Shown here one piece after another: positions 23,268 through 42,055 of a stretch of DNA of 64,000 nt (position 1 is the first letter of the stretch; the number at the start of each line of letters is the position of its first letter). The stretch is from the NCBI RefSeq assembly GCF_020131355.1, contig NZ_JAHLEL010000038.1, positions 558,001 to 622,000 of the forward strand, in the 5' to 3' direction. Source of the DNA: Pseudonocardia sp. ICBG1293. GTDB taxonomy: Bacteria; Actinomycetota; Actinomycetes; Mycobacteriales; Pseudonocardiaceae. The position numbers and the translations under genes were made by a program. The notes beneath the pieces are model-generated. The model saw only the letters and a list, made by a program, of their open reading frames with translations, did not search any database and was not told the DNA's origin.

Positions 23268-24044
23268 TCAGAAGGTGCGGTCCTCCGGGTCGAGCCGGTT
23301 GCGCAGCCGCGACAGCGTCTGGGCGAGCAGCCGGGAGACGTGCATCTGGGAGATGCCGACCTCCTGGGCGATCTGGGTCTGGGTGCGGTTGCCGAAGAAC
23401 CGCAGCATGACGATCGTCCGCTCGCGGGGCGCGAGCTCGGCGAGCAGCGGACGCAGCGACTCGCGGTAGTCGACGCGGTCGAGCTCGGCGTCGGCGTCGC
23501 CGACCAGCTCGCCCACGGTGGCGCTGCCGTCCTCCGAGGACAGCATCTCGTCGAGCGAGGAGCTGCGGTAGGCCTCGGCGGCCTCCAGCCCCTCCAGGAC
23601 CTCGCCGACGGGCAGGTCGAGGTGCTCGGCGAGCTCGGACGGACGGGGCGCGCGGCCCAGGGTCTGGGACAGCTCGGACACCGCGCCGTTGATCGACACG
23701 TGCATGTCCTTGAGCCGCCGCGGCACCCGCATCGACCAGCTCTGGTCCCGGAAGTGCCGGCGCACCTCACCGGAGATGGTGGGCACCGCGAAGGAGAAGA
23801 ACTCGCCGCCCTTCTCCGGGTCGAACCGGTCGATGGCGTTGATCAGGCCGACCGTCGCGACCTGGACCAGGTCGTCGAGCGGCTCGCCGCGGTGGTTGAA
23901 CCGGCGGGCGATGTGCTGGGCGACGGGCAGGTAGCCGGTGACCAGCTGCTCGCGCAGCCGCTCGCGTCGGGGGTCGCCGTCGCCGAGGGCTGCGTACTGC
24001 TCGAGCAGCGGGGTGAGGTGGGCGTACTGGGGGTCCACCGTCAC
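23268..24044 (-). CDS. sigF: SigB/SigF-type alternative sigma factor
   Basis: 258 residues with regions 2, 3 and 4: LDDLVQVATVGLINAIDRFDPEKG (region 2.2-2.3), FAVPTISGEVRRHFRDQSW, and a helix-turn-helix IAQEVGISQMHVSRLLAQTL. It matches SigF of mycobacteria and the B/F/G group. GTG at 24044 begins one base after the rsbW stop, the usual coupled arrangement. Regulation is by partner switching: RsbW binds it, and a dephosphorylated STAS antagonist frees it. Confidence 0.93.
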   Translation of the reverse strand: MTVDPQYAHLTPLLEQYAALGDGDPRRERLREQLVTGYLPVAQHIARRFNHRGEPLDDLVQVATVGLINAIDRFDPEKGGEFFSFAVPTISGEVRRHFRDQSWSMRVPRRLKDMHVSINGAVSELSQTLGRAPRPSELAEHLDLPVGEVLEGLEAAEAYRSSSLDEMLSSEDGSATVGELVGDADAELDRVDYRESLRPLLAELAPRERTIVMLRFFGNRTQTQIAQEVGISQMHVSRLLAQTLSRLRNRLDPEDRTF

Positions 24045-24045
24045 G

Positions 24046-24477
24046 TCACAGTCCGTGACCTGCGCGCTTGTGCAGCCGGATGGTGAGGGCCGGGCGGCCG
24101 CCGTCCTCCTCACCGGTCTCGACGGCGACGTGGTCGGCCAGCGTCTGCAGGACGCGCCAGCCGAAGCTGTCGGTGGGCAGCTGGGTACCCGCGGCGGTCT
24201 CGACCAGGGCGGCGACCTCGATCCGCTCGTCGGAGACGGCGAAGGTGCACCGCAGCGGCGACCCGGGGGCGGCCACCGCGACCAGGGTCGCGCACGCCTC
24301 GTCGACGGCCATCCGCAGGTCGGAGACCGCGTCCAGGTCGAAGTCCGCGCGTGCGGCGAGGTCGGAGGCCACCGCACGGACCGTGGGGATCAGTGCGGGG
24401 CGCGCCGCGACCCTGATCTCGACGGTGTTGTCGGTGCCGGCGTCCTGCGCCGTGCCTGCCACGTCCTCCTGGGCCAC
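24046..24477 (-). CDS. rsbW: Anti-sigma factor, RsbW/UsfX-type serine kinase
   Basis: 143 residues of the HATPase_c fold. The N box LRMAVDEACATLV and the later G-box region (DSFGWRVLQTLADHV) are visible. It should bind SigF and phosphorylate the STAS antagonist encoded upstream. GTG start; tightly followed by sigF. Confidence 0.92.
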   Translation of the reverse strand: MAQEDVAGTAQDAGTDNTVEIRVAARPALIPTVRAVASDLAARADFDLDAVSDLRMAVDEACATLVAVAAPGSPLRCTFAVSDERIEVAALVETAAGTQLPTDSFGWRVLQTLADHVAVETGEEDGGRPALTIRLHKRAGHGL

Positions 24478-24558
24478 GCTGACGAGTCCTTTCGTGCGAC
24501 GGGGTGTCGGGCCGGATCATGTCGCCTCCGGCCGGGGTGTGCAGGACCGGGTGCCCGC

Positions 24559-25071
24559 TCAGGCGCCGGGAATGCCGTCCTGGTCGGGGAGGACGGTGAA
24601 CAGCTGGGCAGAGCCGGTGACCTCGAGCGGCCGGAGCACGGCCCGGTTGGTGGCGACGACGAACAGCCGCCGTCCGTCCCGGGCCGCCCGCCGGGCGGTG
24701 TGGATGAGGACGCCGAGCCCGCTGGAGGCGAGGAACGACACCCCCTCCAGGTCGACGGCGAGGTCACGACCGTCACCGTCGGCGTCGAGACCCAGCAGCT
24801 CGTCGAGGGCCGTCTCGAGGCGCGGTGCGGTCAGGGTGTCGACCTCGCCGCGCACGGTGAGCACGGTGAGGCCGGTGCGGGGTGAGGAGAAGCCGACGCC
24901 GAGGTGGGCGGAGTCGGTGCCGTCCAGCTCGGCGTCCCCGTCCCCCCGGGACGGTTGTGCCGGCGCGGATCCGGGCAGGGTGATCACCTCCGTGTCGGGC
25001 GCCGGGCGGCGCGGAAGCGGTGTGGAGCACCGCCGGGCTCTCGACGGGGCAGGTGCCTTCTCACGCCGCAC
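24559..25071 (-). CDS. STAS-domain anti-sigma factor antagonist (RsbV-like)
   Basis: Up to 170 residues. The STAS fold starts near residue 65 (LTVLTVRGEVDTLTAP) and has the phosphorylatable serine region in VSFLASSGLGVLIHTA. It lies 81 bp upstream of rsbW on the same strand. The N-terminal 60 residues are Pro/Arg/Asp-rich and may not all be translated; GTG near 24987 is an alternative start. The region upstream is interrupted at 25189 by the insertion-sequence nest, which may separate the operon from its original promoter. Confidence 0.85.
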   Translation of the reverse strand: MRREKAPAPSRARRCSTPLPRRPAPDTEVITLPGSAPAQPSRGDGDAELDGTDSAHLGVGFSSPRTGLTVLTVRGEVDTLTAPRLETALDELLGLDADGDGRDLAVDLEGVSFLASSGLGVLIHTARRAARDGRRLFVVATNRAVLRPLEVTGSAQLFTVLPDQDGIPGA

Positions 25072-25215
25072 GACGCACCGGTGTCGCGGCGGGGCCGTCC
25101 TGGCCCGCGCCGGTCCGGTCCACCTACGACAGGAGACCGGGCCCGACGATACCGGCCGGGCTCGGCGGGCCGGGCACGGCGCCTGCCCTTAGAGGTCGCG
25201 CGGATTGGTTGGTGA

Positions 25216-25708
25216 TCATGGACGTCGTGCAGGTCGGGCGTTCCAGCGGTGTGTGGTCCAGGCCTGCCGAATCAAGCTACGGAGTGTGACGATCGTGTCG
25301 GCGAGGTCGAAGAACGCGTCGACGACGATTTCTCGTCGTTCGTAGCAGCGCTGCAGCCGGTTGAAGCTGTTGTGCCAAGCGTTGGTCCGCTCGACGTGCC
25401 AGCGGCGGGTGGCCTGGATCGGCGCTTTCTCACCCTTGTGCGCGATCTCGCCGTGCAGGCCTCGTTCGGCCAGCGTGTCGCGGGTCTTGCCGGAGTCATA
25501 GCCGGCGTCGAGGTGCACGGTGATGTCGTCGGGCAGCGGGCCGAGAGCATCGAGGCGGTCGAGGGTGGGGCCCAGTAGCGGGGAGTCGTGCCGGTTGGCT
25601 CCGGCCAGGACTCGGCCCAGCGGGATGCCGTATCCCTCGACGAGCACCGAACGTTTCATACCCTGTTTGCGCCGGTCCACCGGCGACGGACCGGCGACCT
25701 CGCCGCCG
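25216..25708 (-). pseudogene. 5'-truncated IS5-family transposase (IS-A remnant)
   Basis: The region 25192-25712 is identical, as far as I can read, to the left half of the complete IS-A copy at 53987-54507, beginning with the same terminal repeat GAGGTCGCGCGGATTGGT. Only the C-terminal half of the transposase remains (DAGYDSGKTRDTLAERG, then HVERTNAWHNSFNRLQR with the catalytic Glu). Homology stops at a 7-base sequence shared with the inverted IS-B end. The protein cannot be functional. Confidence 0.88.
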
Positions 25709-25845
25709 CCGGCACCACCTCGGTCAGGACGATCTCCAACTCGAAAATCTTCGTCTTCTCAGACACACGAGGCGCGACCATCAGCCGATGCTGCCAGCCC
25801 CGCCGTCACCGGCAGAACCGGGCCCACCACTTCTGAAACGACGTC
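25706..25845 (-). repeat. Inverted terminal fragment of IS-B
   Basis: This 140-bp segment is the reverse complement of the left end of IS-B (27457-27596), including its terminal repeat and the first codons of the PRiA4b-type gene. It is a solo end left after deletion of the rest. The two facing IS-B ends flank IS-C, forming a long inverted repeat around it. Confidence 0.85.
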
Positions 25846-25848
25846 TTA

Positions 25849-27453
25849 GCTTGATCTTTAACCTTCCGGAGCTGCTGCTGGGAGGTTGATGTAGTTCGGG
25901 CGGCGTGTCGGCGGGACATGGGTACGGCCACCGCTTGATCATCTTCGGGTTCCTTCCACAGAACATCGAAGACGAAAGCGGTGGCCGTGGTGGTCAGTGT
26001 GGCTTCTGCCGGGCCAGTGGTGCTCGGTGACACTCCGGTCGGGCGGGGTGATCTTGCCGGGTTTCGGCAGGAGTTCTACGCGTCGTTGACTGCGCGAGCG
26101 GATGCGCTGTTCGAGCTCACCGACGCCGTGTTGTGCGCGGACGGCCCGGTTCGCTCGCTACCGGAGCTGACCTTGGTGGCTGAGCACCGTCGCGGGCACG
26201 GCGCGATGTACGACGCGTTGGCCTGTGGCAGGATCTCCGCCCGGAGGCTGCGCCGGGTGCTGGCCGGTCTCCCGTTGCCCCGTGCCGTCGACGGTCGGAT
26301 CGTGCTCGCCGTGGATGTCAGCCCGTGGCTGCGCCCGGACGCTACGACCAGCGATCAGCGGCTGTTCTGCCATGTCTACGGACGCGGAAAGGGCAACGCG
26401 CAGCTGATCCCGGGCTGGCCATACTCGTTCGTCGCCGCCCTGGAGACGGGCCGGACGTCGTGGACGGCGGTCCTGGACGCGGTTCGACTCGGCCCGGCCG
26501 ACGACGCCACCGCGGTGACCGCCACCCAGCTACGCGCGGTCATCGAGCGACTGACCAGCGCCGGGCACTGGCGCCCCGGGGACCCGGACATCGTGATCGT
26601 CACCGACACCGGATACGACATCACCCGCCTCGCCTACGTACTGGCCGATCTGCCCGTCGAGCTGGTCGGACGACTGCGCTCGGACCGGGTCCTGCGCCTG
26701 CCCAAGCCGCCACGGCTGCCCGGCACGACCGGGCGCCCACCCAAGCACGGCCCGGAGATCGCCTTGAACCGGCCCGCCACCTGGATCGAACCGGTGCACA
26801 CCACGACGACCAAGACCACCCGCTACGGCACTGCCGTCGCGACCAGCTGGGACCGGGTCCACCCCCGGCTGACCCGGCGCACGTGCTGGATCGACCACGC
26901 CGGCGAACTGCCGATCATCGAGGGCACCCTGCTCCGGCTGCAGGTCGACCACCTACCCGGCGACCGCGACCCGAAGCCCGTGTGGCTATGGAGCTCCGCC
27001 ACCGACGCGAGCGCCGCCGACGTGGACCGCTGGTGGCAGGCGTTCCTCCGCAGATTCGATCTCGAGCACACATTCCGCCTGCTCAAGCAGACCCTCGGCT
27101 GGACAACCCCGAAGCTGCGCACCCCCGAAGCCGCCGACCGCTGGACCTGGCTGATCATCGCCTCCCACACCCAACTCCGCCTGGCCCGACCACTGGCCGC
27201 CGACCTACGCCGCCCCTGGGAACGACCCGCCGCCCCCACCCGGCTCACCCCGGCCCGGGTTCGCCGCGCCTTTCGGAACATCCGCGCGCGGACCGTCCTC
27301 CCGGCCAGTGCACCGAAACCCAGCCGACCCGGTCCCGGCCGCCCACCCGGCTCCCGCAACCGGCACACCCCGACCAGCCACGACGTCGGGAAAACGGTCA
27401 AACGCGACCGCACCATCACCGCGCGACGACAACACACAGGTTAAAAACCAAGC
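25849..27453 (+). mobile_element. IS-C, insertion sequence with NF041680-type transposase
   Basis: 1,605 bp with imperfect 16-bp ends (GCTTGATCTTTAACCT at the left, GCTTGGTTTTTAACCT as the complement of the right; 14 of 16 match). TTA flanks both sides (25846-25848 and 27454-27456). It carries one transposase gene filling most of its length and was inserted at the junction of two inverted IS-B ends. Confidence 0.8.
25981..27444 (+). CDS. Transposase of IS-C (DDE family)
   Basis: 487 residues. A likely DDE triad is visible: Asp in VLAVDVSPWLRPD, Asp in VIVTDTGYDI and Glu in DLEHTFRLLKQTLGW. The C-terminal tail is basic and Pro-rich (RPGPGRPPGSRNRH). The family corresponds to the putative transposases found in many actinobacteria and related to IS4/IS701 groups. 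It appears intact. Confidence 0.85.
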   Translation: MAVVVSVASAGPVVLGDTPVGRGDLAGFRQEFYASLTARADALFELTDAVLCADGPVRSLPELTLVAEHRRGHGAMYDALACGRISARRLRRVLAGLPLPRAVDGRIVLAVDVSPWLRPDATTSDQRLFCHVYGRGKGNAQLIPGWPYSFVAALETGRTSWTAVLDAVRLGPADDATAVTATQLRAVIERLTSAGHWRPGDPDIVIVTDTGYDITRLAYVLADLPVELVGRLRSDRVLRLPKPPRLPGTTGRPPKHGPEIALNRPATWIEPVHTTTTKTTRYGTAVATSWDRVHPRLTRRTCWIDHAGELPIIEGTLLRLQVDHLPGDRDPKPVWLWSSATDASAADVDRWWQAFLRRFDLEHTFRLLKQTLGWTTPKLRTPEAADRWTWLIIASHTQLRLARPLAADLRRPWERPAAPTRLTPARVRRAFRNIRARTVLPASAPKPSRPGPGRPPGSRNRHTPTSHDVGKTVKRDRTITARRQHTG

Positions 27454-27520
27454 TTAGACGTCGTTTCAGAAGTGGTGGGCCCGGTTCTGCCGGTGACGGC
27501 GGGGCTGGCAGCATCGGCTG

Positions 27521-28114
27521 ATGGTCGCGCCTCGTGTGTCTGAGAAGACGAAGATTTTCGAGTTGGAGATCGTCCTGACCGAGGTGGTGCCGGCGGTCCG
27601 GCGTCGGGTGCAGGTGCCGGGCGAGGTCGACTTGGCGGTGTTACACGAGGTGGTGCAGTCAGTGATGGGCTGGACGAACTCTCATTTGCACGAGTTCGAG
27701 ATCGTCGGGCGCCGCTACGGGATCCCAGACCCGGACTGGCCCGGACAGGATGTCGCCGACGAGACGAAAGAGAAGCTGTTTCGGCTGGTCAAGGCTGGTG
27801 ACCGGTTCGGTTACGTCTACGACTTCGGTGACAACTGGGCCCACGAGATCACCGTCGAGGCGGTCGCGGCCGTCGAGCCGGGAGTGTGCTATCCGCGATG
27901 CGTCGCCGGGCAGGGGGCGTGCCCGCCCGAGGACGTCGGCGGGATCGGGGGGTATGAGGACTTCCAGGCCGTGCTCGCCGACCCTGACCATCCCGACCGC
28001 GCCGAGCGCCTGGAGTGGGCGGGCGGGCCGTTCGACCCGCACCGCTTCGACCCTGACGAGGCCGACCGGGCCTTGGAGTGGCTGGCCTGGCGGCCGCTGG
28101 CCCCGACCTCGTAG
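27521..28114 (+). CDS. Plasmid pRiA4b ORF-3 family protein (IS passenger)
   Basis: 197 residues. Hallmarks of the family are TNSHLHEFEIVGRRYG, FGYVYDFGDNWAHEITVE and CVAGQGACPPEDVGGIGGYEDF. Function unknown; these proteins are common on plasmids and transposons. Here it lies inside the IS-B terminal repeats and converges on the transposase, so it moves with the element. Start ATG at 27521. Confidence 0.88.
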   Translation: MVAPRVSEKTKIFELEIVLTEVVPAVRRRVQVPGEVDLAVLHEVVQSVMGWTNSHLHEFEIVGRRYGIPDPDWPGQDVADETKEKLFRLVKAGDRFGYVYDFGDNWAHEITVEAVAAVEPGVCYPRCVAGQGACPPEDVGGIGGYEDFQAVLADPDHPDRAERLEWAGGPFDPHRFDPDEADRALEWLAWRPLAPTS

Positions 28115-28145
28115 GCGAGTGCCTCAGCGAGGGCTGGGTCGACCA

Positions 28146-28991
28146 TCACTTCGGCTTCGGCTTCGGCTTGGTGAGGCGGCGGTGGCAGATCAGGGCGCAG
28201 GCCAGCGATAACAGCGCGGTGATCGTGGATTCGGCGCGGTCGTAGCGCAGCGCGAGGCGGCGGAAGTCCAGCAGCCAGGACATGGTGCGCTCGACGACCC
28301 AGCGGACCCGCCCGAGCCGGGTGGAGTCCTCGATCCCGCGCCGGGCGATCCGCACCCCGATCCCACGCCCACTCAGGTAGCGGCGGCAGCGGGGATAGTC
28401 GTAGCCCTTGTCGGCGTGCACCTTGTCCGGCCGACGTCGCGGACGCCCCGGCTGTCCCGCCCGTTCGCGGACGCCGGGGTTGGTGTCCAGCAGCGGGGCG
28501 AGCATCCGACTGTCGTGGGTGTTCGCCCCGGTGACCAGCGCATGCAGCGGGAGCCCGCCTCGGTCGCAGAGCACGTGGTACTTGCTGCCCGCCTTCCCGC
28601 GATCGGTCGGCGAGGGCCCGGTGGCCTCGCCGCGGCGCTTGGCCCGCACGCTCACGCTGTCCACCGCCGCCCGCGACCAGTCCAGCAGGCCCTGCTGGGC
28701 GAGGCGGTCGAGCATCACCCGGTGCAGCTGGGCCCAGACCCCGGCCTGCTGCCACTGCCGTAGCCGCCGCCAGCAGGTCACTCCGGACCCACAGCCGAGC
28801 TCGGCGGGCAGCGCGTTCCAGCTGATCCCGGTCTTGAGCACGAACACGATCCCGGCCAGAGCGGCCCGATCCGGCACCCGCGGACGGCCTGTCCGTCCCC
28901 GCTTGTGCTTGCGCGGCTTGGGCAGCAGCGGCTCCACCAGCGCCCACAGCTCGTCGCTCACCAATCGCTCGACACAAGATCGCCGCGCCAC
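28146..28991 (-). CDS. IS5-family transposase of IS-B
   Basis: 281 residues. N-terminal DUF4096-type segment (LVSDELWALVEPLLP, FVLKTGISWNALP), then a DDE domain: AAVDSVSVRAKRRGE, HADKGYDYPRCR and RWVVERTMSWLLDFRRLA. Ends in a Lys-Pro repeat (KPKPKPK) made by a short TTCGGC repeat. Appears full length and in one frame. Confidence 0.9.
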   Translation of the reverse strand: MARRSCVERLVSDELWALVEPLLPKPRKHKRGRTGRPRVPDRAALAGIVFVLKTGISWNALPAELGCGSGVTCWRRLRQWQQAGVWAQLHRVMLDRLAQQGLLDWSRAAVDSVSVRAKRRGEATGPSPTDRGKAGSKYHVLCDRGGLPLHALVTGANTHDSRMLAPLLDTNPGVRERAGQPGRPRRRPDKVHADKGYDYPRCRRYLSGRGIGVRIARRGIEDSTRLGRVRWVVERTMSWLLDFRRLALRYDRAESTITALLSLACALICHRRLTKPKPKPK

Positions 28992-29062
28992 GACCGGACA
29001 TGATCAGCTACCAGCGCCGATCCACACAGGACCGACACGCCGACTTCTGAAACGACCTCTAA

Positions 29063-29183
29063 GAGGTCATTTCAGAACGAGGTCGACGTGTCTGTTGTAG
29101 ACGACAAGCGGCTATCTGACCTGCCGTTTGATCTGTCGTCGAGGGGTCAATGGAAACTCGACAAGTCGTTCTGAAACGACCTC
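29063..29183. repeat. 121-bp MITE-like element, copy 1
   Basis: Imperfect 18-bp ends (GAGGTCATTTCAGAACGA and the complement of the other end GAGGTCGTTTCAGAACGA). No transposase. Flanked by TAA on both sides (29060-29062 and 29184-29186). Identical to copies at 29187-29307 and 53863-53983. The terminal GAGGTCGTTTCAGAA is shared with IS-B, so IS-B's transposase is the likely mover. Confidence 0.85.
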
Positions 29184-29186
29184 TAA

Positions 29187-29307
29187 GAGGTCATTTCAGA
29201 ACGAGGTCGACGTGTCTGTTGTAGACGACAAGCGGCTATCTGACCTGCCGTTTGATCTGTCGTCGAGGGGTCAATGGAAACTCGACAAGTCGTTCTGAAA
29301 CGACCTC
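29187..29307. repeat. 121-bp MITE-like element, copy 2
   Basis: Identical to copy 1 and directly adjacent to it, separated by TAA; TTA follows at 29308-29310. It contributes an ATG (29274) with GAGGGG just upstream that opens into the downstream LOV phosphatase frame. Confidence 0.85.
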
Positions 29308-31619
29308 TTAGGCTCGCGCGGGCGACGCGGTATTCCGATCCCGGCCCCGACGCCCCGGCCGGCCCGCCCGGCGACGCGGTGGACCGGGCCGTCGACCAGG
29401 CGGTCGCGACCTCGGTGGAGTCCTTCGGCGAGCAGCCGAGCACCCCCGCGATGCCGCACGTGCGGGGCGACGCCCAGGTGGCCGTGCTCATGATCGACAT
29501 CGCCGAGCGCCGGATCGTCTACGCCAACACCACCGCGTTGGAGCTGCCCGGTGACCACCCGCTGCAGCTGCCGATCGGGGTCCGCGAGTGGAGCGACGCC
29601 GCGCGCCTGACCGACCTCGACGGCCGGCCCTACAGCGACGAGGGGTCGCCACTGGCCCGGATCGCCTCCGGGGAGGCGGTGTCCGGCGAGCCGGTGGCGC
29701 TGCACGGGCCGGGCCTGATGCCCGACCGCGACGGCGTGCCGGTACCGGGGGAGGGCGCGACGGCCAGCAGCACGCTGGTCTGGGTCACCGGGTTCGCGCT
29801 GGCCGACCCGGCCGCCCAGGGGCGGGGCACCTTCGCCCAGGCCTCGACCACCGGCCCCGGCCGGGCGCTGGCCGTGCTGCTGCCGCTCTCGGACTCCGAG
29901 GCGGGCCACGGCGGGGACCGCGACCGGATGGGGTTCCTGCGCGATCGCGCCGTGCTGGCCACCGAGATGTCGTTCACGATCTCCGACCCCCAGCTCGAGG
30001 ACGACCCGCTGGCCTGGGTGAACCCCTCGTTCGAACGGCTGACCGGGTACCCGCTGGACGAGGTCGTCGGCCGGAACTGCAGGTTCCTGCAGGGCCCCAA
30101 CACCGACCGGTCGTCGGTCCGCCGGGTGCGCGAGGCGCTGCGGGAACGGCGGGCGATCACCGAGGTGCTGCTCAACTACCGCCGCGACGGCACCGCGTTC
30201 TGGAACCAGGTGTCCATCTCGCCGGTGCACGACGGCGACGGCGAGCTCGTCAACTTCGTCGGCGTGCAGAGCGACGTGACCGAGCGGGTCGTCGTCGAGC
30301 AGGAACGGCGGGCGGCACTGGCCGACGCCGAGGCGGCCCGGGCTCAGCTGCGGCTGCTCGCCGAGGCGACCACCCAGATGACCTCGGCGCTCGACGTCGC
30401 CGACGCCTGCCGCCGCTTCTCCCGGATCGTGGTCCCGGAGCTGGCCGACCTGTGCACGGTGGACCTGCTCGACGCCCCCGACGGGGCCACCCGCGAGCGG
30501 ATGGCCGTCGCCGCCCGGGACGCCGACGACGAGGCGCTGCTGTCCCGGTCCGGTCCGCTCGGCACGAGCCCGATCGAGCAGCAGGCCGAGACCGCGGTCC
30601 GGACCGGGAAGCCCTACCTGGTGCAGGAGCTGCCCGACGACGGTCGTGAGGTGCACCCGGACGACCCGGAGGCGGCCGACGCCTACGAGCGGCTGCGGCT
30701 GCGCTCGGCCATGGTCGTCCCGCTGCTCGGCCGCGGGCGGGTGCTCGGCCTGGTCACCCTGTCCACCCAGTTCCCCTACGGCCGTCGCTGGACCCAGCGC
30801 GACGTGCACCTGGCCTCGGACCTGGCGGGCCGGGCCGGGCTGGCCGTCGACAACGCCCGGCTCTACGAGGTCGAGCGGGCCGCGGCGGCGACGCTGCAGC
30901 ACAGCCTGCTCCCGGCGCTGCCGCAGGTGTCGGGGATGCGGGTCGCGGCCCGCTACCTGGTCGGCGCAGACGGCAACCAGGTGGGCGGGGACTGGTACGA
31001 CGTGCTGCCGATGCCGGACGGCTCGGTCGGTGCCGCGGTGGGTGACGTCGTGGGGCACGACCTGTCCGCGGCGGCCGCGATGGGACAGCTGCGCGGCGTG
31101 CTGCGCTCCTACGCCTGGGGTGGTGACGCGCCCGGCCCGGTGCTCGACCGCTGCGACCAGCTGGTGCAGGGCCTGGACATCGCCGCGATGGCGACCGCGG
31201 TCTACGCCCGGTTCGGGTCGGCGGGCCCCGACGGCGCACGCGAGCTCACCTACGCCAACGCCGGGCACCCGGCGCCGCTGCTGCGCGACCCGCAGGGCAG
31301 GCTGCACCGGCTCGACGCGCACCACTCACCGATGCTCGGAGCGGTCCCGGAGTTCGGGCGGGCCGCCGGGGCGCATCGCGACGGCGCCACCGTGGCGTGC
31401 GCGGCGGGGTCGCTGCTGGTCTTCTACACCGACGGCCTGACCGACATCGTCGGCGAGGACGCCGACGCCCGGACCGAGCTCATCGAGCGGACGGTGGAGG
31501 AGCTGCCCTCCGACGCCGACCCCGAGCGGGTGGTGGAGCGGGTGCTCGAGGTGTGCCTGCCCGACCGGCTCGACGACGACATCGCGCTGCTCGCGATCCG
31601 GCTGGACCGCCCGGCCTGA
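29274..31619 (+). CDS. LOV-photosensor PP2C (RsbU/SpoIIE-type) serine phosphatase
   Basis: Up to 781 residues: an N-terminal PAS-like segment (about 60-200), a LOV domain (about 226-335), a GAF domain (about 366-533) and a PP2C phosphatase (541-781). The LOV core has GRNCRFLQGPNTD, with Cys269 as the flavin-adduct cysteine, plus NYRRDGTAFWNQ and VGVQSDVTER with the FMN-contacting Asn and Gln. PP2C motifs are GGDWYDV, GDVVGHDLSAAAAMG, YANAGHPAPLL and VFYTDGLTD. It should dephosphorylate STAS antagonists when light is sensed and so free SigF. The first 11 codons lie in the MITE; native starts could be GTG 29379 or ATG 29451. Confidence 0.88.
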   Translation: METRQVVLKRPLRLARATRYSDPGPDAPAGPPGDAVDRAVDQAVATSVESFGEQPSTPAMPHVRGDAQVAVLMIDIAERRIVYANTTALELPGDHPLQLPIGVREWSDAARLTDLDGRPYSDEGSPLARIASGEAVSGEPVALHGPGLMPDRDGVPVPGEGATASSTLVWVTGFALADPAAQGRGTFAQASTTGPGRALAVLLPLSDSEAGHGGDRDRMGFLRDRAVLATEMSFTISDPQLEDDPLAWVNPSFERLTGYPLDEVVGRNCRFLQGPNTDRSSVRRVREALRERRAITEVLLNYRRDGTAFWNQVSISPVHDGDGELVNFVGVQSDVTERVVVEQERRAALADAEAARAQLRLLAEATTQMTSALDVADACRRFSRIVVPELADLCTVDLLDAPDGATRERMAVAARDADDEALLSRSGPLGTSPIEQQAETAVRTGKPYLVQELPDDGREVHPDDPEAADAYERLRLRSAMVVPLLGRGRVLGLVTLSTQFPYGRRWTQRDVHLASDLAGRAGLAVDNARLYEVERAAAATLQHSLLPALPQVSGMRVAARYLVGADGNQVGGDWYDVLPMPDGSVGAAVGDVVGHDLSAAAAMGQLRGVLRSYAWGGDAPGPVLDRCDQLVQGLDIAAMATAVYARFGSAGPDGARELTYANAGHPAPLLRDPQGRLHRLDAHHSPMLGAVPEFGRAAGAHRDGATVACAAGSLLVFYTDGLTDIVGEDADARTELIERTVEELPSDADPERVVERVLEVCLPDRLDDDIALLAIRLDRPA

Positions 31620-32109: not shown

Positions 32110-32231
32110 GTGAGGCAGGGGACGACGCGACCGCGCAGGCTGGTCGCGGTGGCACTGACCGCGGCGGAGTCCGCCCGTGCGGGGGCCCGCTCGCGGCGCT
32201 GTCCGGCGAGGCGGGGGAGACCGACCTGCTG

Positions 32232-32669
32232 GTGGTGCGGGACGACCCGGCCCCCACGCGACGCCCGCTGACGGCGGCCGAGGCGCGGGAGCTGCTGGCG
32301 TCCGAGGACGACACCGACAGCGACAGCGACAACGACACCGGGATCGGCACCGGGGGCGTGCCGACCGGGTCGCTGCCGGCCGAGCGGGTGCGGGTGCACC
32401 GGCTGGGTCTGCGCTGGGCGGTGCAGGACGGCGACGAGGCCGACCTGGTCGCGGCGCTCTCGGAGCTGGTCGGGTTCGACCCCGACGACGACACCTGGTG
32501 CGTGGCCCCGGCGGCCAGTGGGCCGGTGGCCGACCCGGAGATCGAGGTGGTCCGCCGCGCGGTGCGCCGCGTCGCCCGGGTCTACGGGCTCCCGGTGCTG
32601 CCCTACCGGCCCGCCGGCCCGGTCCCGGAGGGTGTCACCGAGCCCGACGCGCTCCCGTCGGCGGTCTGA
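32232..32669 (+). CDS. Hypothetical acidic protein, probably longer through a frameshift
   Basis: 145 residues from GTG 32232: a Thr/Ala-rich start, an Asp/Ser-rich run (DDTDSDSDNDTG) and a C-terminal domain (RVHRLGLRWAVQDGDEADLVAALSELVGFDPDDD). No family recognised. The same frame is open upstream (PLAALSGEAGETDLLVVRDD), and GTG 32110 in the next frame encodes MRQGTTRPRRLVAVALTAAE ending at a run of five G (32181-32185). One extra G would fuse both into a protein of about 186 residues. So the present start may be artificial. Its place between LOV phosphatase and WhiB suggests a regulatory context only. Confidence 0.6.
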   Translation: MVRDDPAPTRRPLTAAEARELLASEDDTDSDSDNDTGIGTGGVPTGSLPAERVRVHRLGLRWAVQDGDEADLVAALSELVGFDPDDDTWCVAPAASGPVADPEIEVVRRAVRRVARVYGLPVLPYRPAGPVPEGVTEPDALPSAV

Positions 32670-32721
32670 GGCCGTCGGCGGTCCGCCCGGTGCCCGTCCG
32701 ACGGGACGTCCGGGCAGCAGA

Positions 32722-32750: not shown

Positions 32751-32778
32751 GTCGGATCCCCGGTCCGGAGCAGATCCG

Positions 32779-33105: not shown

Positions 33106-33364
33106 GTGCTCACCTCGTCGCTCGGGGCCCGGGAGGACCGGGTTGGCTCCTCATCCCGTTTCCCGAGGGGCTCCGAGATCAAACCTGCGCGACGACCGGA
33201 TCGGTGCTAGCGACGGTGCGCTCCGGGCTCCGGGTGCGGGCCGGGTGGCCGGACGAACCGGCGATCGGCCCTGTTCACGGCGCCGCCCCGCGTCGGCACG
33301 TACTCGGCGGGGCGTCCGGCGCGACCCGTCGGCCGTACGTCGGTGATGTGACTCAGGTCACTGA

Positions 33365-33778
33365 TCAGGAGGCGAGTGCGGCCTGCACGTCGTCGTGGAT
33401 GTCGAACAGATGGTGCAGCCCGGCGATGCCGATCGGGCGCAGGACACGCCGCTCGGTGCAGGCCAGACGCAGCTCGACGCCGTCGCGGTGCGCCTGCTCC
33501 CGCAGCTCGATCAGTGCCGCCAGACCCGAGGTGCCGAGGAAGCGGACCCCGTCGAGATCCAGTACGACCAGCGACGCCGCGGACATCTGCTCGGCCACCG
33601 AGCCCCGCAGCTCCGGCGCCGTCAGCATGTCCAGCTCACCGGCGACCGCGACGACGACGACCCCGTCGGACGGCCGGGAGGTCTCCAGGCGCAGCCCGTC
33701 GCAGGAGTCGGTGACTTCCGACGACACTCCGCCGGTGCCGTCGGTGGTGCCGGCGGCGGGTGGACGGGAGTCGGTCAT
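33365..33778 (-). CDS. STAS-domain anti-sigma factor antagonist
   Basis: 137 residues from ATG 33778. STAS fold with [18 protein letters not shown] and the phospho-acceptor region [16 protein letters not shown], where Thr-Ser replaces the usual Ser pair. Likely a substrate of RsbW-type kinases and PP2C phosphatases such as the LOV protein nearby. A Ser/Thr/Asp-rich N-terminal 35 residues precedes it. A small inverted repeat (TGACTCAGGTCA, 33349-33360) lies just after the stop. Confidence 0.85.
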
Positions 33779-33826
33779 GGGGCCGACGGTAGGCACCGTG
33801 GCACGGGGACGCCACTCGGAGCCGGG

Positions 33827-35647
33827 TCAGCGCAGACGATGGGTCCCGTCCGGCATCCGCACCGTGAGTCCCCTGCGGGCCAGCAGCTCCAGCAGCGGGA
33901 CGACGACCCGGCGGCTGCTGCGCAGCGCCTCCCGGGCGGCCGAGACGGTGAACCCCCCGTCGAGACCGCCGAGCACCGCGACCGCCAGCCCGGGGGCGTC
34001 GGGACCCAGCACCACGTCCGGGGCCACCCGCAGCAGCTCCCCGGCACGGTCGAGCACCGCCAGCTCCCGCGGCCCGAGTCCCAGCTCGGCCAGCCGCGCC
34101 GCGCCCGGCGCGGCGAACGGGTCGTCGGCGAGGTCGGCGCGGAGCCGGGCAGCGGCCTCGCGCAGCGCGGCGGGCGGGCCGGTGTCCGCCGCGACCCGCA
34201 CCCGTCCGTCGCGCAGGTCGAGACCGGTTCCGCCGACCGCGGACAGCACCGCGGCGACCAGCGCCGCGTCCGGGAGCCCGGCCGCCCGCCGGGCCGCGGC
34301 GAGCGACAGCCCGGGATCGAGCGGGTCCTCGGCGTCGTGCGCGGCGACGGCGGCGGCCAGCGCTGCGGCCGCGGAGGCGGCGGTGGCCGGGTGCACCAGC
34401 CGGCCCGCGGCACCCGGAACCCGGGCCGCGAGCGCGGCCACCTCGTCGGCGGGCACCCCCCACCGCACCAGGTCGTCGGCCCGGACGGTGCCGCGCCGGG
34501 CCAGCTCGGAGTCGGCGTCGGGGACGGCACCGACCCCGGCCAGCTCGGCGGCCCGGCGGCGGGCGGCACCCCGGCGGCGCAACGGTGACGGCGCCGGGTC
34601 CAGCACGGTCACCCCGGCCACGATCCGCCCCGCGCCCGGATCACGCAGCACCGCCCGGTCCCCGATCCGCAACGGCAACGGCCGTGCCGGCGCCAGCCGC
34701 ACGAGCGGGTCCCCGCCCGCCGGGCCCGGGCCGAGCGGACGGACCCGTACCGGCACGGCCGCCGACCCGACGTGCAGGGTCAGCCCGACCGGCGTCGACG
34801 GCAGCGGCACCGGACCCGCGACCCCGTGCAGCCGGACGTCGGCCTCCCCGGTGACCGGCCACGCTCCCGGCCCGAGCAGGGCGTCGCCCCGGTCGACCCG
34901 GTCCCTCGGGACGCCCCGCAGGTTGAGGGCCACCCGCGCGACCGCGGTCGCGGCGCCGACCGGCTCGCCGAGCTCCTGCACCCCGCGCACGGTGACCGGG
35001 GCCCTGCCGGTCGCGCCGTCGAGCTCCAGGACGTCGCCGGGACGCACGGTGCCGCTGCCCAGCGTGCCGGTGACGACCGTCCCGGCCCCACGGACGGTGA
35101 ACGCCCGGTCCACCCACAGCCGGACCGGCCCGTGCGGGTCGGGGGCGGGCAGCCGGGTGGTGAGGGCGGCCAGCGCGGTGCGCAGCACGTCCAGGCCGGC
35201 GCCGGTGCGGGCGGAGACCTCGACGCAGGGCCATCCGCCGAGCCCGCGGCGGGCGAGCTCGTCCCGGGCATCGTCCCGGGCGAGCTCGGGATCGAGCAGG
35301 TCGGAGCGGGTCACCACGAGCAGCCCGTCGGCGACGCCCGCGGCGGCGAGCGCGTCGGCGTGCTCCCCGGACTGCGGCATCCAGCCCTCGTCCGCGGCCA
35401 CGACGAACAGCGCCGCCGGGACCGGACCCGCCCCGGCGAGCATCGTGCCGACGAACCGTTCGTGCCCGGGGACGTCGACGAACGCGACGGTGCCCGCCCC
35501 CGCCACCGTGGTCCAGGCGAAGCCGAGGTCGATCGTCATCCCGCGGCGTCGTTCCTCGGCGTACCGGTCGGGCTCCATCCCGGTCAGTGCCCGGACCAGC
35601 GTGGACTTGCCGTGGTCGACGTGGCCCGCGGTGCAGAGCACGTGCAC
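33827..35647 (-). CDS. selB: Selenocysteine-specific elongation factor
   Basis: 606 residues. GTPase motifs: [15 protein letters not shown] (P loop), [12 protein letters not shown] (switch), [11 protein letters not shown] and [11 protein letters not shown]-Tu-like beta barrels follow, and the C-terminal third is a set of winged helices that bind the SECIS hairpin in mRNA. It delivers Sec-tRNA to in-frame UGA codons. GTG start, 3 bp after the selA stop, so the two are translated together. A tRNA-Sec gene lies 6 kb away. Confidence 0.95.
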
Positions 35648-35650
35648 GGC

Positions 35651-36982
35651 TCAGCCCACCGGCCGGTCCGCGACCGCCCGCACGGCCCCGGCCAGCGCCG
35701 CGTCCGACGACGACGGCAGCGCCCGCAGGTCGAGCAGACAGCGCCCGTCGGCGATCCGGCCCAGCACCGGCGGGTCGCCCGCGCGCAGCGCCGCCGCGTA
35801 GCGCTCGGGCAGCGCGACGGCCGCGCTGGGCAGCTCCACCCCGGGCGCACCGCCGCCGCCGACCCCGGCGACGGTGTCGAGGGCGGTCGCGTCGACGCCG
35901 TCGGCGGCCAGTGCCGCGGCCAGCGCGCCGGCGCGGTCGCGCAGCCCGGCCGGGTCGGCGTCGAGGAACTCCCGCACGGGTGTCGGGGGGCCGTCGACCG
36001 AGGCCTCCAGCGCGGCGAGGGTCAGCTTGTCGACGCGCACCGCCCGGGCCAGCGGGAACCGCCGCACCCGCTCGACCAGGGCGGTCCCGCGGTCCCCGCC
36101 GCCGAACAGCAGCCCGGCCTGCGGCCCGCCGAGCAGCTTGTCGCCGGAGGCGGTGACCAGGTCGGCACCGGCGGCGAGGGTGCTCGCGGCGTCGGGCTCG
36201 TCGGGCAGCAGCGGGTGCGGGGCCAACAGCCCGGATCCGATGTCCACGACGACCGGCGGCCCCAGCCCGGCCAGCTCGCGCACCCCCACGGCCGAGACGA
36301 ACCCCGACACCACGAAGTTCGACGGGTGCACCACGAGCAGGAACGCGGTGTCCGGGCCGACCGCGTCGGCGTAGTCGCGCAGGTGGGTGCGGTTGGTGGT
36401 GCCGACCGGTCGGAGCCGGGCCCCGGTGGACTCGATCAGCTCCGGGATGCGGAAGCCGTCGCCGATCTCGACGAGCTGCCCGCGGGAGACGACGACCTCG
36501 CCCCCGGTACCGGCGAGCGCGGCGCACACCAGGGCCAGGGCGGCGGCGCCGTTGTTCGCGACCCAGGTCGCCCCGGCCCCCGGGACGGCGTCGCGCAGCG
36601 CGGCCAGTACGCCGCTGCCGCGGGGGCCGCGCCGTCCGGTGGCCAGGTCCAGCTCGACGTCGCAGGTGCCCGCGGCCACCCGCAGCGCGTCGACGGCGGC
36701 GGCGGACAGCGGCGCCCGGCCCAGATTGGTGTGCAGCAGGACGCCGCTGGCGTTCAGGACCGCCCGGATGCCGGTCGCGGTGGCCGGCAGCGCGGCCCGG
36801 GCGGCGGCGGCGACCTCCTCCGGCGCGATCCGGCCCTCCCGCGCGGCCTGCTGGGCCGCGACGACGGCGCGTTTGACCCGGTCCCGGCCCCACCGCGCCG
36901 TGGCCCCGTCCAGCACCGGGTCGGCCAGGACCGCGTCGGTCCGCGGCACCCGCCGGCGCGGGTCGGGCTCGGCGGTGGGCAC
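35651..36982 (-). CDS. selA: L-seryl-tRNA(Sec) selenium transferase
   Basis: 443 residues from GTG 36982. PLP lysine in [19 protein letters not shown]. Other family blocks are [23 protein letters not shown] and [11 protein letters not shown]. It converts Ser-tRNA(Sec) to Sec-tRNA(Sec) with selenophosphate from SelD. A longer start at 37027 adds 15 basic residues (RDSRWWRRYRAP); the shorter one fits the usual SelA beginning and has GGAGG about 12 bases upstream. Overlaps nothing; selB follows directly. Confidence 0.94.
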
Positions 36983-37044
36983 CGGCGCACGGTACCTCCG
37001 CCACCACCGGCTGTCCCGCGTCCGCACGGGCCGGCGGCCCGCGG

Positions 37045-37920: not shown

Positions 37921-38092
37921 CTCGTCGATCCCCCCGTGCTGCTCCCTCGCTGGACACCCGTCCTGCTCACGGTGCGTCAGTCTCCGTGTTCGCGGCGCAG
38001 CTCGACAGCCCCCGTTCGGCGGACGGCACCGGCCCGGCGGTCGACGGTGCGTGACCTGGTGGCCCCCGGGGCGTCGCTGTCACCATGGAGGG

Positions 38093-39127
38093 ATGTCCGA
38101 CACCGGTGTCGTCCGCCGTCTCACCGAGTTCAGCCACGGGGCGGGGTGCGGCTGCAAGCTCGGGCCCGCCCAGCTGGCGGAGGTCCTCGCCGCGGTGACG
38201 CCCCCGTCGCACCCGGACCTGCTCGTCGGCACCGACACCGGGGACGACGCCGCGGTCTGGCGGCTGTCGGCGGACCGGGCACTGGTCGCCACCACCGACT
38301 TCTTCACCCCGATCGTCGACGACCCCGGTACCTGGGGGGCGATCGCCGCCACCAACGCCGTCTCCGACGTCTACGCCATGGGCGGGCGCCCGCTGTTCGC
38401 GCTGAACCTGGTCTGCTGGCCCTCGGAGGCGCTCGGACCGGACGTGCTGGCCGCCGTCCTGGAGGGCGGGGCCGCGGTGGGGCGGCGGTGCGGGTTCGCC
38501 GTCGTCGGCGGGCACACGATCGATGATCCGGAGCCGAAGTACGGCCTCGCCGTGGTGGGGGAGGTCCACCCGGACCGGGTCCTGACCAACGCCGGGCTGC
38601 GCCCGGGCGACGAGCTGGTGCTGACCAAGCCGCTCGGGATCGGCGTGACCACGACCGCGGTGAAGCGCGGGGTGCCCGCGGACGTCGACGCCGCCGTCGC
38701 CGTCATGACCACCCCGAACGACGACGCCGCCGCGGCCGCCCGGGAGGCGGGCGCCACCGGCTGCACCGACGTCACCGGCTACGGCCTGCTCGGGCACCTC
38801 ACGAAGATGACCGTCGCCTCGGGGGTGGACGCGCACGTCGACGTCGCCGCGGTCCCGCTGCTCGGCGGGGTGCGGCGGCTCGTCGCCGACGGTGTCGTCC
38901 CCGGCGGCACGCTGCGCAACCGCGCCTGGATCGCCGACCGGGTCGTCGCCGGCTCGGCCGCCGAGGAGGACCTGCTGGTCCTGTCCGACGCCCAGACCTC
39001 GGGCGGACTGCTGTTCGGCGCGGCCCCCGGCCGGGGGGACGAGGCCGTGGCGTGGCTGCGCGGGCGCGGTCACGGGGCGGCCCGGATCGGCACCGTCACC
39101 GAGGGGACCGGACTGGTCCGGCTCTGA
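38093..39127 (+). CDS. selD: Selenide, water dikinase (selenophosphate synthase)
   Basis: 344 residues. The catalytic Cys is in HGAGCGCKLGPAQL (Cys rather than Sec), followed by the ATP-binding glycine-rich segments VGTDTGDDAAVW and NAVSDVYAMGGRPL. It makes selenophosphate from selenide and ATP for SelA. It diverges from the selB-selA block. GGAGGG abuts the ATG. Confidence 0.95.
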   Translation: MSDTGVVRRLTEFSHGAGCGCKLGPAQLAEVLAAVTPPSHPDLLVGTDTGDDAAVWRLSADRALVATTDFFTPIVDDPGTWGAIAATNAVSDVYAMGGRPLFALNLVCWPSEALGPDVLAAVLEGGAAVGRRCGFAVVGGHTIDDPEPKYGLAVVGEVHPDRVLTNAGLRPGDELVLTKPLGIGVTTTAVKRGVPADVDAAVAVMTTPNDDAAAAAREAGATGCTDVTGYGLLGHLTKMTVASGVDAHVDVAAVPLLGGVRRLVADGVVPGGTLRNRAWIADRVVAGSAAEEDLLVLSDAQTSGGLLFGAAPGRGDEAVAWLRGRGHGAARIGTVTEGTGLVRL

Positions 39128-39148
39128 GGCCGCTCTAGGGTCACGGGG

Positions 39149-40249
39149 GTGCAGCCCGTCGACCGCTCCTGTGCCCGTACCCGCGCCTGGGTCGACGAGG
39201 CGATGCGCCGCGTCCAGGCCGATGCGAACCGTTCCGCCGACACGCACCTGCACGTGCTGGAGCTGCCCGCCGAGTGGGACGTGCAGGTCTACCTCAAGGA
39301 CGAGTCGGTGCACCCGACGGGCAGCCTCAAGCACCGGCTGGCCCGCTCGCTGTTCCTCTACGCACTGGCGTCGGGCTGGATCACCGACGGGACCACGGTC
39401 GTCGAGGCCAGCTCCGGGTCGACCGCGGTGTCCGAGGCCTACTTCGCCCGGCTGCTCGGTCTGCCGTTCGTGGCGGTCATGCCGCGCTCGACGAGCCCGG
39501 AGAAGGTCGCGCTGATCGAGCGGGAGGGCGGGCGCTGCCACTTCGTCGAGCACGGCGGGGAGGTCTACGCCGAGGCCGAGCGGCTGGCCGCGGCCACCGG
39601 CGGGCACTACCTCGACCAGTTCACCTACGCCGAGCGCGCGACCGACTGGCGCGGCAACAACAACATCGCCGAGTCCATCCTGGCCCAGCTGGCCGAGGAG
39701 CCGCACCCGGTGCCGGAGTGGATCGTGGTCGGCGCCGGGACCGGGGGCACCTCGGCGACGATCGGCCGCTACCTGCGCTACCGGCGGCTCGCGACCCGGC
39801 TGGCCGTCGTCGACCCGGAGGGGTCGGCGTTCCTGCCCGGATGGACGGCGGGGGACCCGTCGTACGCGACCGGGGCGGGGTCGCGGATCGAGGGGATCGG
39901 GCGCCCCCGGATGGAGCCGAGCTTCGTCCCGTCGGTGATCGACCGGATGGTCCCGGTGCCCGACGCGGCCAGCGTCGCCGCCGCCCGCGACCTGCGGGAG
40001 CGCACCGGCCGCTGGGCGGGCGGGTCGACCGGCACCAACCTGTGGGGCGTCTACCAGGTCGTCGCCGAGATGCTGCGCGCCGGCTGTGCGGGCAGCGTCG
40101 TGACGCTGTTGTGCGACGGCGGCGAGCGCTACCGCCACAGCTACTACGACGACGCCTGGGTCGCGGCCCAGGGGATGGACCTGGCGCCGTACACGGCGAC
40201 CCTCGATCGGTTCGTCGCCACCGGGGTCTGGTCCCCGCCCGCGGGCTGA
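39149..40249 (+). CDS. cds1: PLP-dependent cysteine desulfhydrase (Cds1-like)
   Basis: 366 residues, fold-type II PLP enzyme. PLP lysine in [15 protein letters not shown], substrate loop [15 protein letters not shown] and [15 protein letters not shown]. The sequence resembles M. tuberculosis Rv3684 (Cds1), which breaks cysteine to pyruvate, ammonia and sulphide. It starts 21 bp after selD on the same strand. That linkage suggests it may release sulphide, or selenide from selenocysteine, near SelD; this is inference only. Confidence 0.85.
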
Positions 40250-40266
40250 GCCGGACCGTCGCCGGG

Positions 40267-41520
40267 TCAGCCCCGGGCGAGCAGGGCGGCGGTCGCGAGC
40301 AGCCGCCGCTCCGATCCGGGCCGCCCGACGAGCTGCACGCACCCGTGCTCACCGGACCGGTGCACCGGCGCGACCAGTGACGGCAGCCCGGCCAGGTTCC
40401 AGGCGGCGACGCCGGTGGAGCCGGCCCCGGACGCCCCGGGAGGTGCGGGCAGCAGCCCGGCCTCGGCGCCGGCGTCGTCGAGCCAGGCGACCATCCGCTG
40501 CCGCCACGACGCGGGCGTCGCCGGACGCAACCCGCCCAGGCGCCGGACGCGGCGGCCGCGGCGGACCAGGCTGCGGGCGCTGCGCGGCAGCTCGGCGGGA
40601 TCCAGCCCGAGGTCCTCCACCCGGCGGGCGAGCCCGGCCTGACGGCGGCGGGCGGAGTGCACGACCAGGACGGCCCGGTAGGGCGGGTCGGCCGCGACCA
40701 GCCCCAGCCCGTCGTCCTGCAGCAGCCGGATGGCCGCGTGCACGGCCGACGCCGCGTCGGGCCCGGCCAGCCGGGTGCGACCCGTGCGCAGCGACGCGGC
40801 CAACGAGGAGACGGGCGCCGCCGGAGGGCGGGAGCCGGTGTCGGCGGGTGCGGCCCGCCGGATCACCGACGACGGCGCGGGCGGTCCGGCGGCGCCCCGG
40901 GAGAGCGCGTCGAGCACCGTGGTGAGGTCGTCGGGGTGCCGGGCGAGCAGGGTCGGCTCGGCGAGCCCGCACCAGCGCCGCTCGGCGGCGTCGGGTACCG
41001 GGAGCACCCGGCGGCCCGGCTTGAGGGCGGCGATCCCGTGGGCCGCGGCGGCGCAGCGCAGGGTGCCGTCGCCGTCGACCCCGATCCCGAGCGGGACGGC
41101 ACCGGAGGCGACCACGGCGGCGGTGGCCCGGCCACCGGGCGTGCCGTCGAGCCCGACCTCGTGCTCGGCGGTGCGTGCCCACCCGGCGACGAGCGCGCCC
41201 GCCGCCCGCAGTCTGCGCACGACCTCGTCCCCGCGCCCGGCGACGGAGATGCCGTCCTCGACCACGACGGGGACCCCGGCGAGCGGGAGGGCGAACCGGT
41301 CGGTGCGCCGGTCGAGGGCTGCGGCCGCCGCCCGCAGCGCACCGGGATCCACCACGAGCCCGACCCCGTCCGGGACGGCGTCGTCGATCGCGGTGAGGAG
41401 CCGTTCGGCGACGGTGGCCGCGCTCAGCCGTCCCTCCCGCACCGCGGCGGCGAGGTCCGGCACACCGGACGGGCCGTCGTCCGAGGTGGAGGACGGCTCG
41501 TCCAGGTGCAGGATGCTCAT
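40267..41520 (-). CDS. Amidase-family protein missing the catalytic triad
   Basis: 417 residues aligned to the amidase-signature family but without its chemistry. The catalytic Lys segment reads PVVVEDGISVAG (Lys to Glu), the GGSSGG loop is replaced by GTPGGRATAAVVASG, and the nucleophile segment reads GVDGDGTLRCAAAAHG (Ser to Thr). The fold-supporting IAALKPGRR and C-terminal AAWNLAGLPSLVAPV remain. It is long and intact, so a non-enzymatic or binding role is likely. ATG start 44 bases after tRNA-Sec on the same strand. Confidence 0.8.
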   Translation of the reverse strand: MSILHLDEPSSTSDDGPSGVPDLAAAVREGRLSAATVAERLLTAIDDAVPDGVGLVVDPGALRAAAAALDRRTDRFALPLAGVPVVVEDGISVAGRGDEVVRRLRAAGALVAGWARTAEHEVGLDGTPGGRATAAVVASGAVPLGIGVDGDGTLRCAAAAHGIAALKPGRRVLPVPDAAERRWCGLAEPTLLARHPDDLTTVLDALSRGAAGPPAPSSVIRRAAPADTGSRPPAAPVSSLAASLRTGRTRLAGPDAASAVHAAIRLLQDDGLGLVAADPPYRAVLVVHSARRRQAGLARRVEDLGLDPAELPRSARSLVRRGRRVRRLGGLRPATPASWRQRMVAWLDDAGAEAGLLPAPPGASGAGSTGVAAWNLAGLPSLVAPVHRSGEHGCVQLVGRPGSERRLLATAALLARG

Positions 41521-41563
41521 CGCGGTGGGGCCCGTCGTCCCGGTCGTCGGGGGTGGTGGTCGG

Positions 41564-41656
41564 CGGAGGCGGACGGGAATCGAACCCGCCTGGCCGAGGT
41601 GCTCGGCCACGTCGGTGTTGAAGACCGCGGGGGCCACCAGGCACCCATACGCCTCC
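41564..41656 (-). tRNA. selC: Selenocysteine tRNA (anticodon UCA)
   Basis: 93 bases. Eight-base acceptor arm GGAGGCGT with CCGCCTCC (last pair mismatched), long D arm, anticodon stem GGT/ACC with loop CTTCAAC giving UCA, a long variable arm (GTGGCCGAG...CTCGGCCAG) and T loop TTCGATT. Discriminator G followed by CC and then G, so CCA is only partly encoded. It lies 6 bases after the STAS gene and 44 before the amidase-like gene, all on the same strand. With selA, selB and selD it gives a full Sec-insertion set. Confidence 0.95.
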
Positions 41657-41662
41657 AGGTCG

Positions 41663-42055
41663 TCAGGCCGTGCGGAGCGCGTCGGTCACGCCGTCGGCCA
41701 CGTCGAACAGGGACATCAGGTTGGTCGCCTCGAGTGCACGGGTCACGGCGTGCGAGCCGCAGACCAGCCGCAGCCGGCTGCCGGCGTTCTCGGCCTTCTC
41801 CTTGCCCTCGACGAGCGCCGCCAGTCCGGCCGACCCGAGGAACGTGACCCGGGTCAGGTCCACCACGAGCAGGCTCGCGGAACCGATCCGCTCGGCGAGT
41901 CGTTCGCTCAGCACGGGCGCGGTCATCGTGTCGATCTCGCCGTGCACACCGACGACGACGGCGCCGTCACCGTGCTCGGTAACCTCGAAGCGGACGACCT
42001 CGCCGACGTCGGGGCCCTGGTCTCCCCCCACCCCGGTGGGCGTCTCACTGCTCAT
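41663..42055 (-). CDS. STAS-domain anti-sigma factor antagonist
   Basis: 130 residues. GAVVVGVHGEIDTMTAPVL, then the phospho-acceptor Ser in VTFLGSAGLAALVEG, and ALEATNLMSLFDVADGV at the end: a standard RsbV/BldG-like STAS protein. Third such gene in the window. It ends 6 bases before tRNA-Sec, so a shared transcript is likely. Confidence 0.9.
   Translation of the reverse strand: MSSETPTGVGGDQGPDVGEVVRFEVTEHGDGAVVVGVHGEIDTMTAPVLSERLAERIGSASLLVVDLTRVTFLGSAGLAALVEGKEKAENAGSRLRLVCGSHAVTRALEATNLMSLFDVADGVTDALRTA

Follow-up and report, generated by a model that had tools for sequence, protein, structure and literature searches.

The window, by which we mean the whole stretch of 64,000 nucleotides analysed (C38:558001-622000), belongs to a draft genome of 7.96 Mb in 86 contigs. 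A PAS-LOV-GAF-PP2C gene on its plus strand is divergent from a STAS1-rsbW-sigF operon on the minus strand, with a mobile island of 4.1 kb between them. This Pseudonocardia-like genome thus pairs a likely blue-light sensor-phosphatase with genes for a stress sigma factor, and the arrangement, kept in many relatives, suggests that a stress program can be turned on by light, although mobile DNA has entered the control region of the copy in this strain. The closest records of the LOV protein were from Pseudonocardia (at most 74% over the best segment), and the best relatives among the genomes of the genus revealed LOV proteins that were 94-95% identical (94% in G002). The following features were assigned:

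23268-24086, minus strand: SigF-type sigma factor (Pfam sigma-70 regions 2, 3 and 4; NCBIfam family models)
24046-24477, minus strand: RsbW, an anti-SigF factor of the kind without the N-box Asn (Pfam HATPase_c_2; solved relatives; orthologue alignment)
24559-25071, minus strand: STAS1, candidate substrate (Pfam STAS); likely true start at 24978 (CTG) or 24987 (GTG)
25145-25157, minus strand: putative -10 (TAnnnT) of the STAS1-rsbW-sigF operon (by eye, in aligned close relatives)
25188-29311, no strand: mobile island including the CTTAG copies on either side; it holds the remnant of one transposase, a complete transposase gene, an IS carrying a PRiA4_ORF3 gene, and two MITE copies
29274-31619, plus strand: PAS-LOV-GAF-PP2C phosphatase gene, ORF as it stands (Pfam, structure model, solved relatives); ATG inside the MITE
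29309-29324, plus strand: TAGGCT, a kept hexamer, at 29309-29314, followed at 29322-29324 by GCG, a codon that is GTG in close relatives (relatives aligned)
29946-30302, plus strand: LOV domain, residues 225-343, adduct Cys269 (Pfam, solved relatives, orthologue alignment)
30393-30851, plus strand: GAF domain, residues 374-526 (Pfam)
30990-31604, plus strand: SpoIIE/PP2C domain with conserved Asp 573, 591, 720 and 768 (Pfam, orthologues, solved relative)
33365-33796, minus strand: STAS2, third gene after selA-selB (Pfam STAS)
41663-42055, minus strand: STAS3, 6 bp before tRNA-SeC (Pfam STAS)

An intact LOV signature with Cys269, fused to a SpoIIE-type phosphatase, had been reported in a preliminary description of this DNA, and both the Pfam domains (PAS/LOV at residues 242-337, GAF at 394-525, and SpoIIE at 581-777, the last with 125.4 bits against a cut-off of 25) and the context of the cysteine (GRNCRFLQG) bear this out. 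A structure model, which had a mean pLDDT of 71.5 with low values in the LOV part and served for domain order only, revealed an extra PAS-like fold at residues 70-204, where Pfam is silent, and long helices at residues 336-370 and 508-545. As modelled, the domain order is PAS-LOV-GAF-PP2C, which corrects the earlier LOV-GAF-PP2C. The five best solved relatives of the LOV part were aureochrome LOV chains, and Rv1364c (3ke6) was the closest solved relative of the phosphatase domain and its only match at E ≤ 0.001. Residues C269, R270, Q273, N301, N311 and Q332 as well as the four PP2C aspartates were kept in all 38 orthologues from the genus (N268 in 37/38), and the adduct cysteine was invariant in an alignment of 24 sequences including other genera. 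At the sequence level, the protein resembles a LOV photoreceptor in carrying this cysteine in a GxNCRFLQ motif together with the conserved Asn/Gln positions, which we take to be the flavin contacts. The YtvA family model (NF052652, NCBIfam) matched the LOV part only, with 141.4 bits against a cut-off of 250, and the LOV-STAS layout was not present. A search of the strain's own genome for a second clear LOV domain revealed none, the sole other match being 29% identical (E = 1.9e-4).

On the minus strand, Pfam places STAS, HATPase_c_2 and the sigma-70 regions, in agreement with the divergent STAS-rsbW-sigF operon described before. The sigma factor passed the SigB/SigF/SigG model TIGR02980 (290.7 bits, cut-off 234.35) and stayed under the cut-off of the narrower SigF model NF005514 (349.6 versus 372). 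In RsbW, the N-box Asn, which we take to serve ATP binding, is replaced by Thr in all 61 orthologues, with the Glu kept, and all RsbW equivalogs scored below their cut-offs, so that the protein does not group with the RsbW/SpoIIAB kinases. Its best solved matches, 8ih8_C and 8jzt_B, presumably mycobacterial chains, are named anti-sigma-F factor RsbW and have Arg at the N-box position. Being nearest to anti-SigF chains and devoid of the N-box Asn, the protein matches the mycobacterial anti-SigF type (RsbW1/UsfX). Since this Asn is missing, the three genes probably do not make up the whole textbook switch, and the kinase opposing LOV-PP2C is probably encoded elsewhere. In the likely design, RsbW acts as a plain anti-sigma factor, and a separate kinase works against the phosphatase under light control. 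The strain's own genome holds 29 HATPase_c_2 matches, several RsbW-like ones of which keep the N-box by pattern (candidates at C38:478852, C54:395709 and C44:509079 in G000), one of them belonging to a long protein that also has SpoIIE and STAS portions. Another of them, at L272:2801-4318, is divergent from a second sigF-like gene (57% to SigF); as its N-box is intact, this RsbW-like protein is a candidate for the kinase.

With regard to SigF targets, the promoter consensus used was the mycobacterial one, and it had 0 matches in the window. In the whole genome it gave 11 matches versus 2 for the backward control, which we do not count as support, as 8 of the 11 were one repeated sequence. M. 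smegmatis SigF is described as controlling carotenoid genes (PMC4694148), and the genome of the window strain holds one gene of the phytoene/squalene synthase type; as nothing links this gene to SigF, a tie to carotenoids was dropped.

The loop serine of STAS1 was found in 48/48 sequences and aligns with the serine of solved antagonists including RsfB; its solved matches were the antagonist 4qtp and RsfB (8ih8). STAS1, STAS2 and STAS3 all scored over the cut-off of TIGR00377, as antagonists of the RsbV/SpoIIAA type do. A CTG at 24978 lies behind a perfect GGAGGTGATC ribosome-binding sequence (24976-24991) shared with close relatives and is a likelier start of STAS1 than the ORF start at 25071. 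The gap between the two transcription units with the IS removed, given earlier as about 190 bp, hinges on this choice and amounts to c. 131 bp with 25071 or c. 224 bp with 24978.

For the conservation of this pairing we used 62 genomes of the genus including that of the window strain, 38 of which revealed LOV-PP2C (E ≤ 1e-120; weaker LOV-PP2C proteins were scored as absent) and 61 an rsbW orthologue. Eight of the 38 LOV matches hold 1-3 stops, six of them a single one. In 28 of the 38, the LOV gene lies at most 1.3 kb from rsbW, so the pairing is not due to chance; the whole gene block is syntenic, though, and adjacency by itself therefore lends weak support. The remaining spacings were 4.8 kb in the window strain, due to the island, 13.6-25.0 kb in six genomes and a location on another contig in three. 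In 18 of 20 stretches from LOV-less genomes, hyp145 stays beside the operon while the LOV gene is cleanly missing. In the window, hyp145 (32232-32669), which has no Pfam family, sits between the LOV gene and a WhiB gene. One LOV-less genome, G021, harbors another SpoIIE phosphatase near STAS1 and STAS2 (L199:3252-4262), possibly an exchange of the sensor; no PAS/LOV match was found in the 337-residue stretch scanned.

Domains, key residues and neighborhood are conserved, and STAS1 is present wherever LOV is, with a full-length copy in 38/38 LOV genomes. The comparison with LOV-less genomes leaves out G006, which is 72% complete and had no rsbW match. Among the 23 LOV-less genomes with rsbW, STAS1 was full-length in 10, reduced to a C-terminal remnant in one (G072) and not found beside rsbW in 12; tblastn had given 13/23 as absent, and the more sensitive profile search recovered the G072 remnant. 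Fisher's test on these genomes, which are related, gave p = 1.7e-7, or 7.8e-7 with G072 counted as present, and the losses run one way only, STAS1 never being missing where LOV is present. A tree built from RsbW, SigF and WhiB requires a minimum of 9 changes for LOV and of 5-6 for STAS1; the tree-aware test of the association was not significant (median p 0.5), with 3 supported independent pairs, too few for significance. The full STAS1 in 10 LOV-less genomes indicates that it has other inputs.

STAS1 and STAS2 were the two antagonists compared, and it is STAS1 that tracks LOV. The two further STAS genes reported at 33.4 and 41.7 kb are real by Pfam, and STAS2 follows selB at a distance of 30 bp as the last gene of a selA-selB-STAS2 run; the proposal that several antagonists serve as light inputs, however, found no support, as nothing ties STAS2 or STAS3 to light. 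Of the 23 LOV-less genomes, 19 retain STAS2, two lack it in the fetched stretch, and in two more it would lie beyond the contig end. The loop residue in the window strain is Thr in STAS2 and Ser in STAS3 (motif tallies for these two were left out, as paralogues were mixed). Both are surrounded by selenocysteine genes, namely selA (35651-37027), selB (33827-35647), selD (38093-39127) and tRNA-SeC (41562-41656). An amidase-like ORF (40267-41637) overlaps tRNA-SeC, so that the start given for it in the ORF list probably lies too far upstream. A survey of 150 genomes revealed selB in 95; in the 30 loci fetched, only that of the window strain had a STAS gene in the flank of selB, and the 29 others of the order had none.

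The mobile island extends from about 25193 to 29306, between CTTAG copies at 25188-25192 and 29307-29311, and relative G002 has a single CTTAG and no island at this site. Within it, an IS-like unit (27453-29063) with inverted ends of 37 nt carries a PRiA4_ORF3 gene beside its transposase, and a tandem pair of a 124-nt MITE lies at 29045-29292; of a 122-nt stretch of the MITE, the rest of the genome holds at least 41 identical copies, with 40 out of 265 candidates having been scored. In 33 of 37 LOV genes, a TAnnnT hexamer precedes an in-frame GTG by 6-7 nt (4.9 expected from shuffles; G066 was left out because its upstream sequence was too short), a layout that, as far as the sequence tells, resembles that of leaderless genes. 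The four genes for which it was not scored were those of the window strain, G001, which shows it by eye, and G022 and G050. In the window strain, the conserved -10-like TAGGCT hexamer survives, abutted by the island edge, and the GTG reads GCG, which makes expression uncertain. The strain may have no LOV-PP2C protein from the native start, and the gene may have been silenced or rewired through the island and the loss of the GTG; the GCG at 29322 may also be a sequencing error. The ATG at 29274 is MITE sequence, and relatives start elsewhere.

LOV- or BLUF-linked SpoIIE phosphatases are described as a named class of bacterial blue-light receptors, and the window protein shares with its LOV members the fusion of LOV to a SpoIIE/PP2C phosphatase (PMC4844311); what sets it apart is its place next to a SigF operon that includes a likely substrate, together with its additional PAS and GAF domains. 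Like YtvA and Lmo0799, LOV-STAS proteins that raise sigma-B activity, it would bring a LOV light input to a general-stress sigma factor, but with a phosphatase instead of a STAS output (PMC4844311). Rv1364c of M. tuberculosis and RsbP of B. subtilis likewise join sensor domains to a PP2C acting on STAS antagonists; Rv1364c, however, has kinase-like and STAS domains of its own, whereas the window protein has LOV and no further domain behind PP2C, and the sensor of RsbP is a PAS domain in place of LOV. The account of M. smegmatis in PMC7693655 has RsfB phosphorylated by RsbW2 only and not by the anti-SigF factor RsbW1, with RsbW1 and RsbW3 clustering with anti-sigma factors without kinase activity, and assigns the RsfB phosphatase tentatively. 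That switch (RsbW1, RsbW2, RsfB) and the present locus have in common SigF, an anti-sigma RsbW devoid of the kinase N-box and a STAS antagonist that bears a serine in its loop; here, STAS1 lies in the rsbW-sigF operon with the LOV phosphatase beside it, while in M. smegmatis rsfB is in an operon with rsbW2 (PMC7693655). Among titles and abstract openings of the searched literature, which excludes most subscription journals, we found no LOV phosphatase acting on SigF.

Altogether, we consider it probable, with some reserve, that LOV-PP2C is a blue-light-regulated input phosphatase for STAS1 in the SigF partner switch, and we infer flavin binding, the light effect and its direction, the substrate and the kinase accordingly as follows. 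Blue light would form an adduct between flavin and Cys269 in the LOV domain; the change would travel along the helices at 336-370 and 508-545 and alter PP2C activity; PP2C would take the phosphate off the loop serine of STAS1; and unphosphorylated STAS1 would pull RsbW off SigF, leaving SigF free to work. As RsbW has no kinase N-box Asn, another kinase, e.g., an RsbW homolog elsewhere in the genome, would re-phosphorylate STAS1. The earlier proposal that light acts on SigF through partner switching is thus partly supported and remains the best reading, based on the intact residues, the conserved neighborhood and the presence of STAS1 wherever LOV is; because of the missing N-box Asn in the adjacent RsbW, it has to be amended by a kinase encoded elsewhere.

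Against this reading stand the lack of a match to the mycobacterial SigF promoter consensus in the window, the six genomes in which the pair is 13.6-25.0 kb apart and the loci outside the genus, i.e., the 67 without the name Pseudonocardia among 80 loci kept: in 65 of them the fetched flanks, which were short in some cases, revealed no gene for STAS, RsbW or SigF, and the other two have a STAS gene there. These orthologues would fit a light-regulated LOV-PP2C that acts on other STAS proteins or phosphoproteins and came to lie beside sigF through joint inheritance of the block, as would the surrounding genes being conserved with or without LOV (hyp145 above) and the non-significant tree-aware test. 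We regard this as rather unlikely, considering that LOV was never found without STAS1, which is lost or decayed in 13 of the 23 LOV-less genomes, and that STAS1 is the STAS gene nearest to LOV-PP2C and divergently arranged. Even less probable in our view is a LOV domain serving mainly as a dark redox or flavin sensor, by which the protein would, in the manner of PAS-PP2C proteins, signal energy or redox stress to SigF. RsbP, a PAS-phosphatase, is described as reporting energy limitation (PMC3183031), M. smegmatis SigF as induced on respiration inhibition (PMC7693655), and the window protein carries a GAF domain and a further PAS-like one besides LOV; the adduct cysteine, however, is kept throughout the genus orthologues and the 24-sequence alignment, as expected if photochemistry matters.

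For the window strain only, the LOV-PP2C gene could be a silent relic after insertion of the island. Its hexamer and GTG layout is missing, and G022 and G050, the two other genomes without it, carry 2-3 stops in their LOV matches; in the window strain, by contrast, no stop interrupts the 781 codons of the frame, every key residue is kept, and the MITE holds the ATG with an upstream GAGGGG, so that we lean against a relic while taking it seriously. Somewhat more speculative is a broader scenario at the level of the genus, in which a free-standing blue-light phosphatase joined a SigF operon with a non-kinase anti-sigma factor as a Pseudonocardia invention, light works against a distant kinase by tipping the balance, with no stressosome involved, and the MITE at the promoter of the window strain now provides the start codon, by which the pathway is rewired or made blind.

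The light-to-stress-sigma routes of B. subtilis and Listeria are described as using LOV-STAS proteins, in B. subtilis within the stressosome (PMC4844311). With a LOV domain built into the phosphatase that we favor as the input of STAS1, the route would be shorter, and transcription could be placed under light control with a compact tool. Genomes of the same genus with LOV and STAS1, with STAS1 alone or with neither provide a natural comparison of the effect of a light input, and the division of labor known from mycobacteria, where the anti-sigma factor is no kinase and a separate protein phosphorylates the antagonist, becomes testable in a second group.
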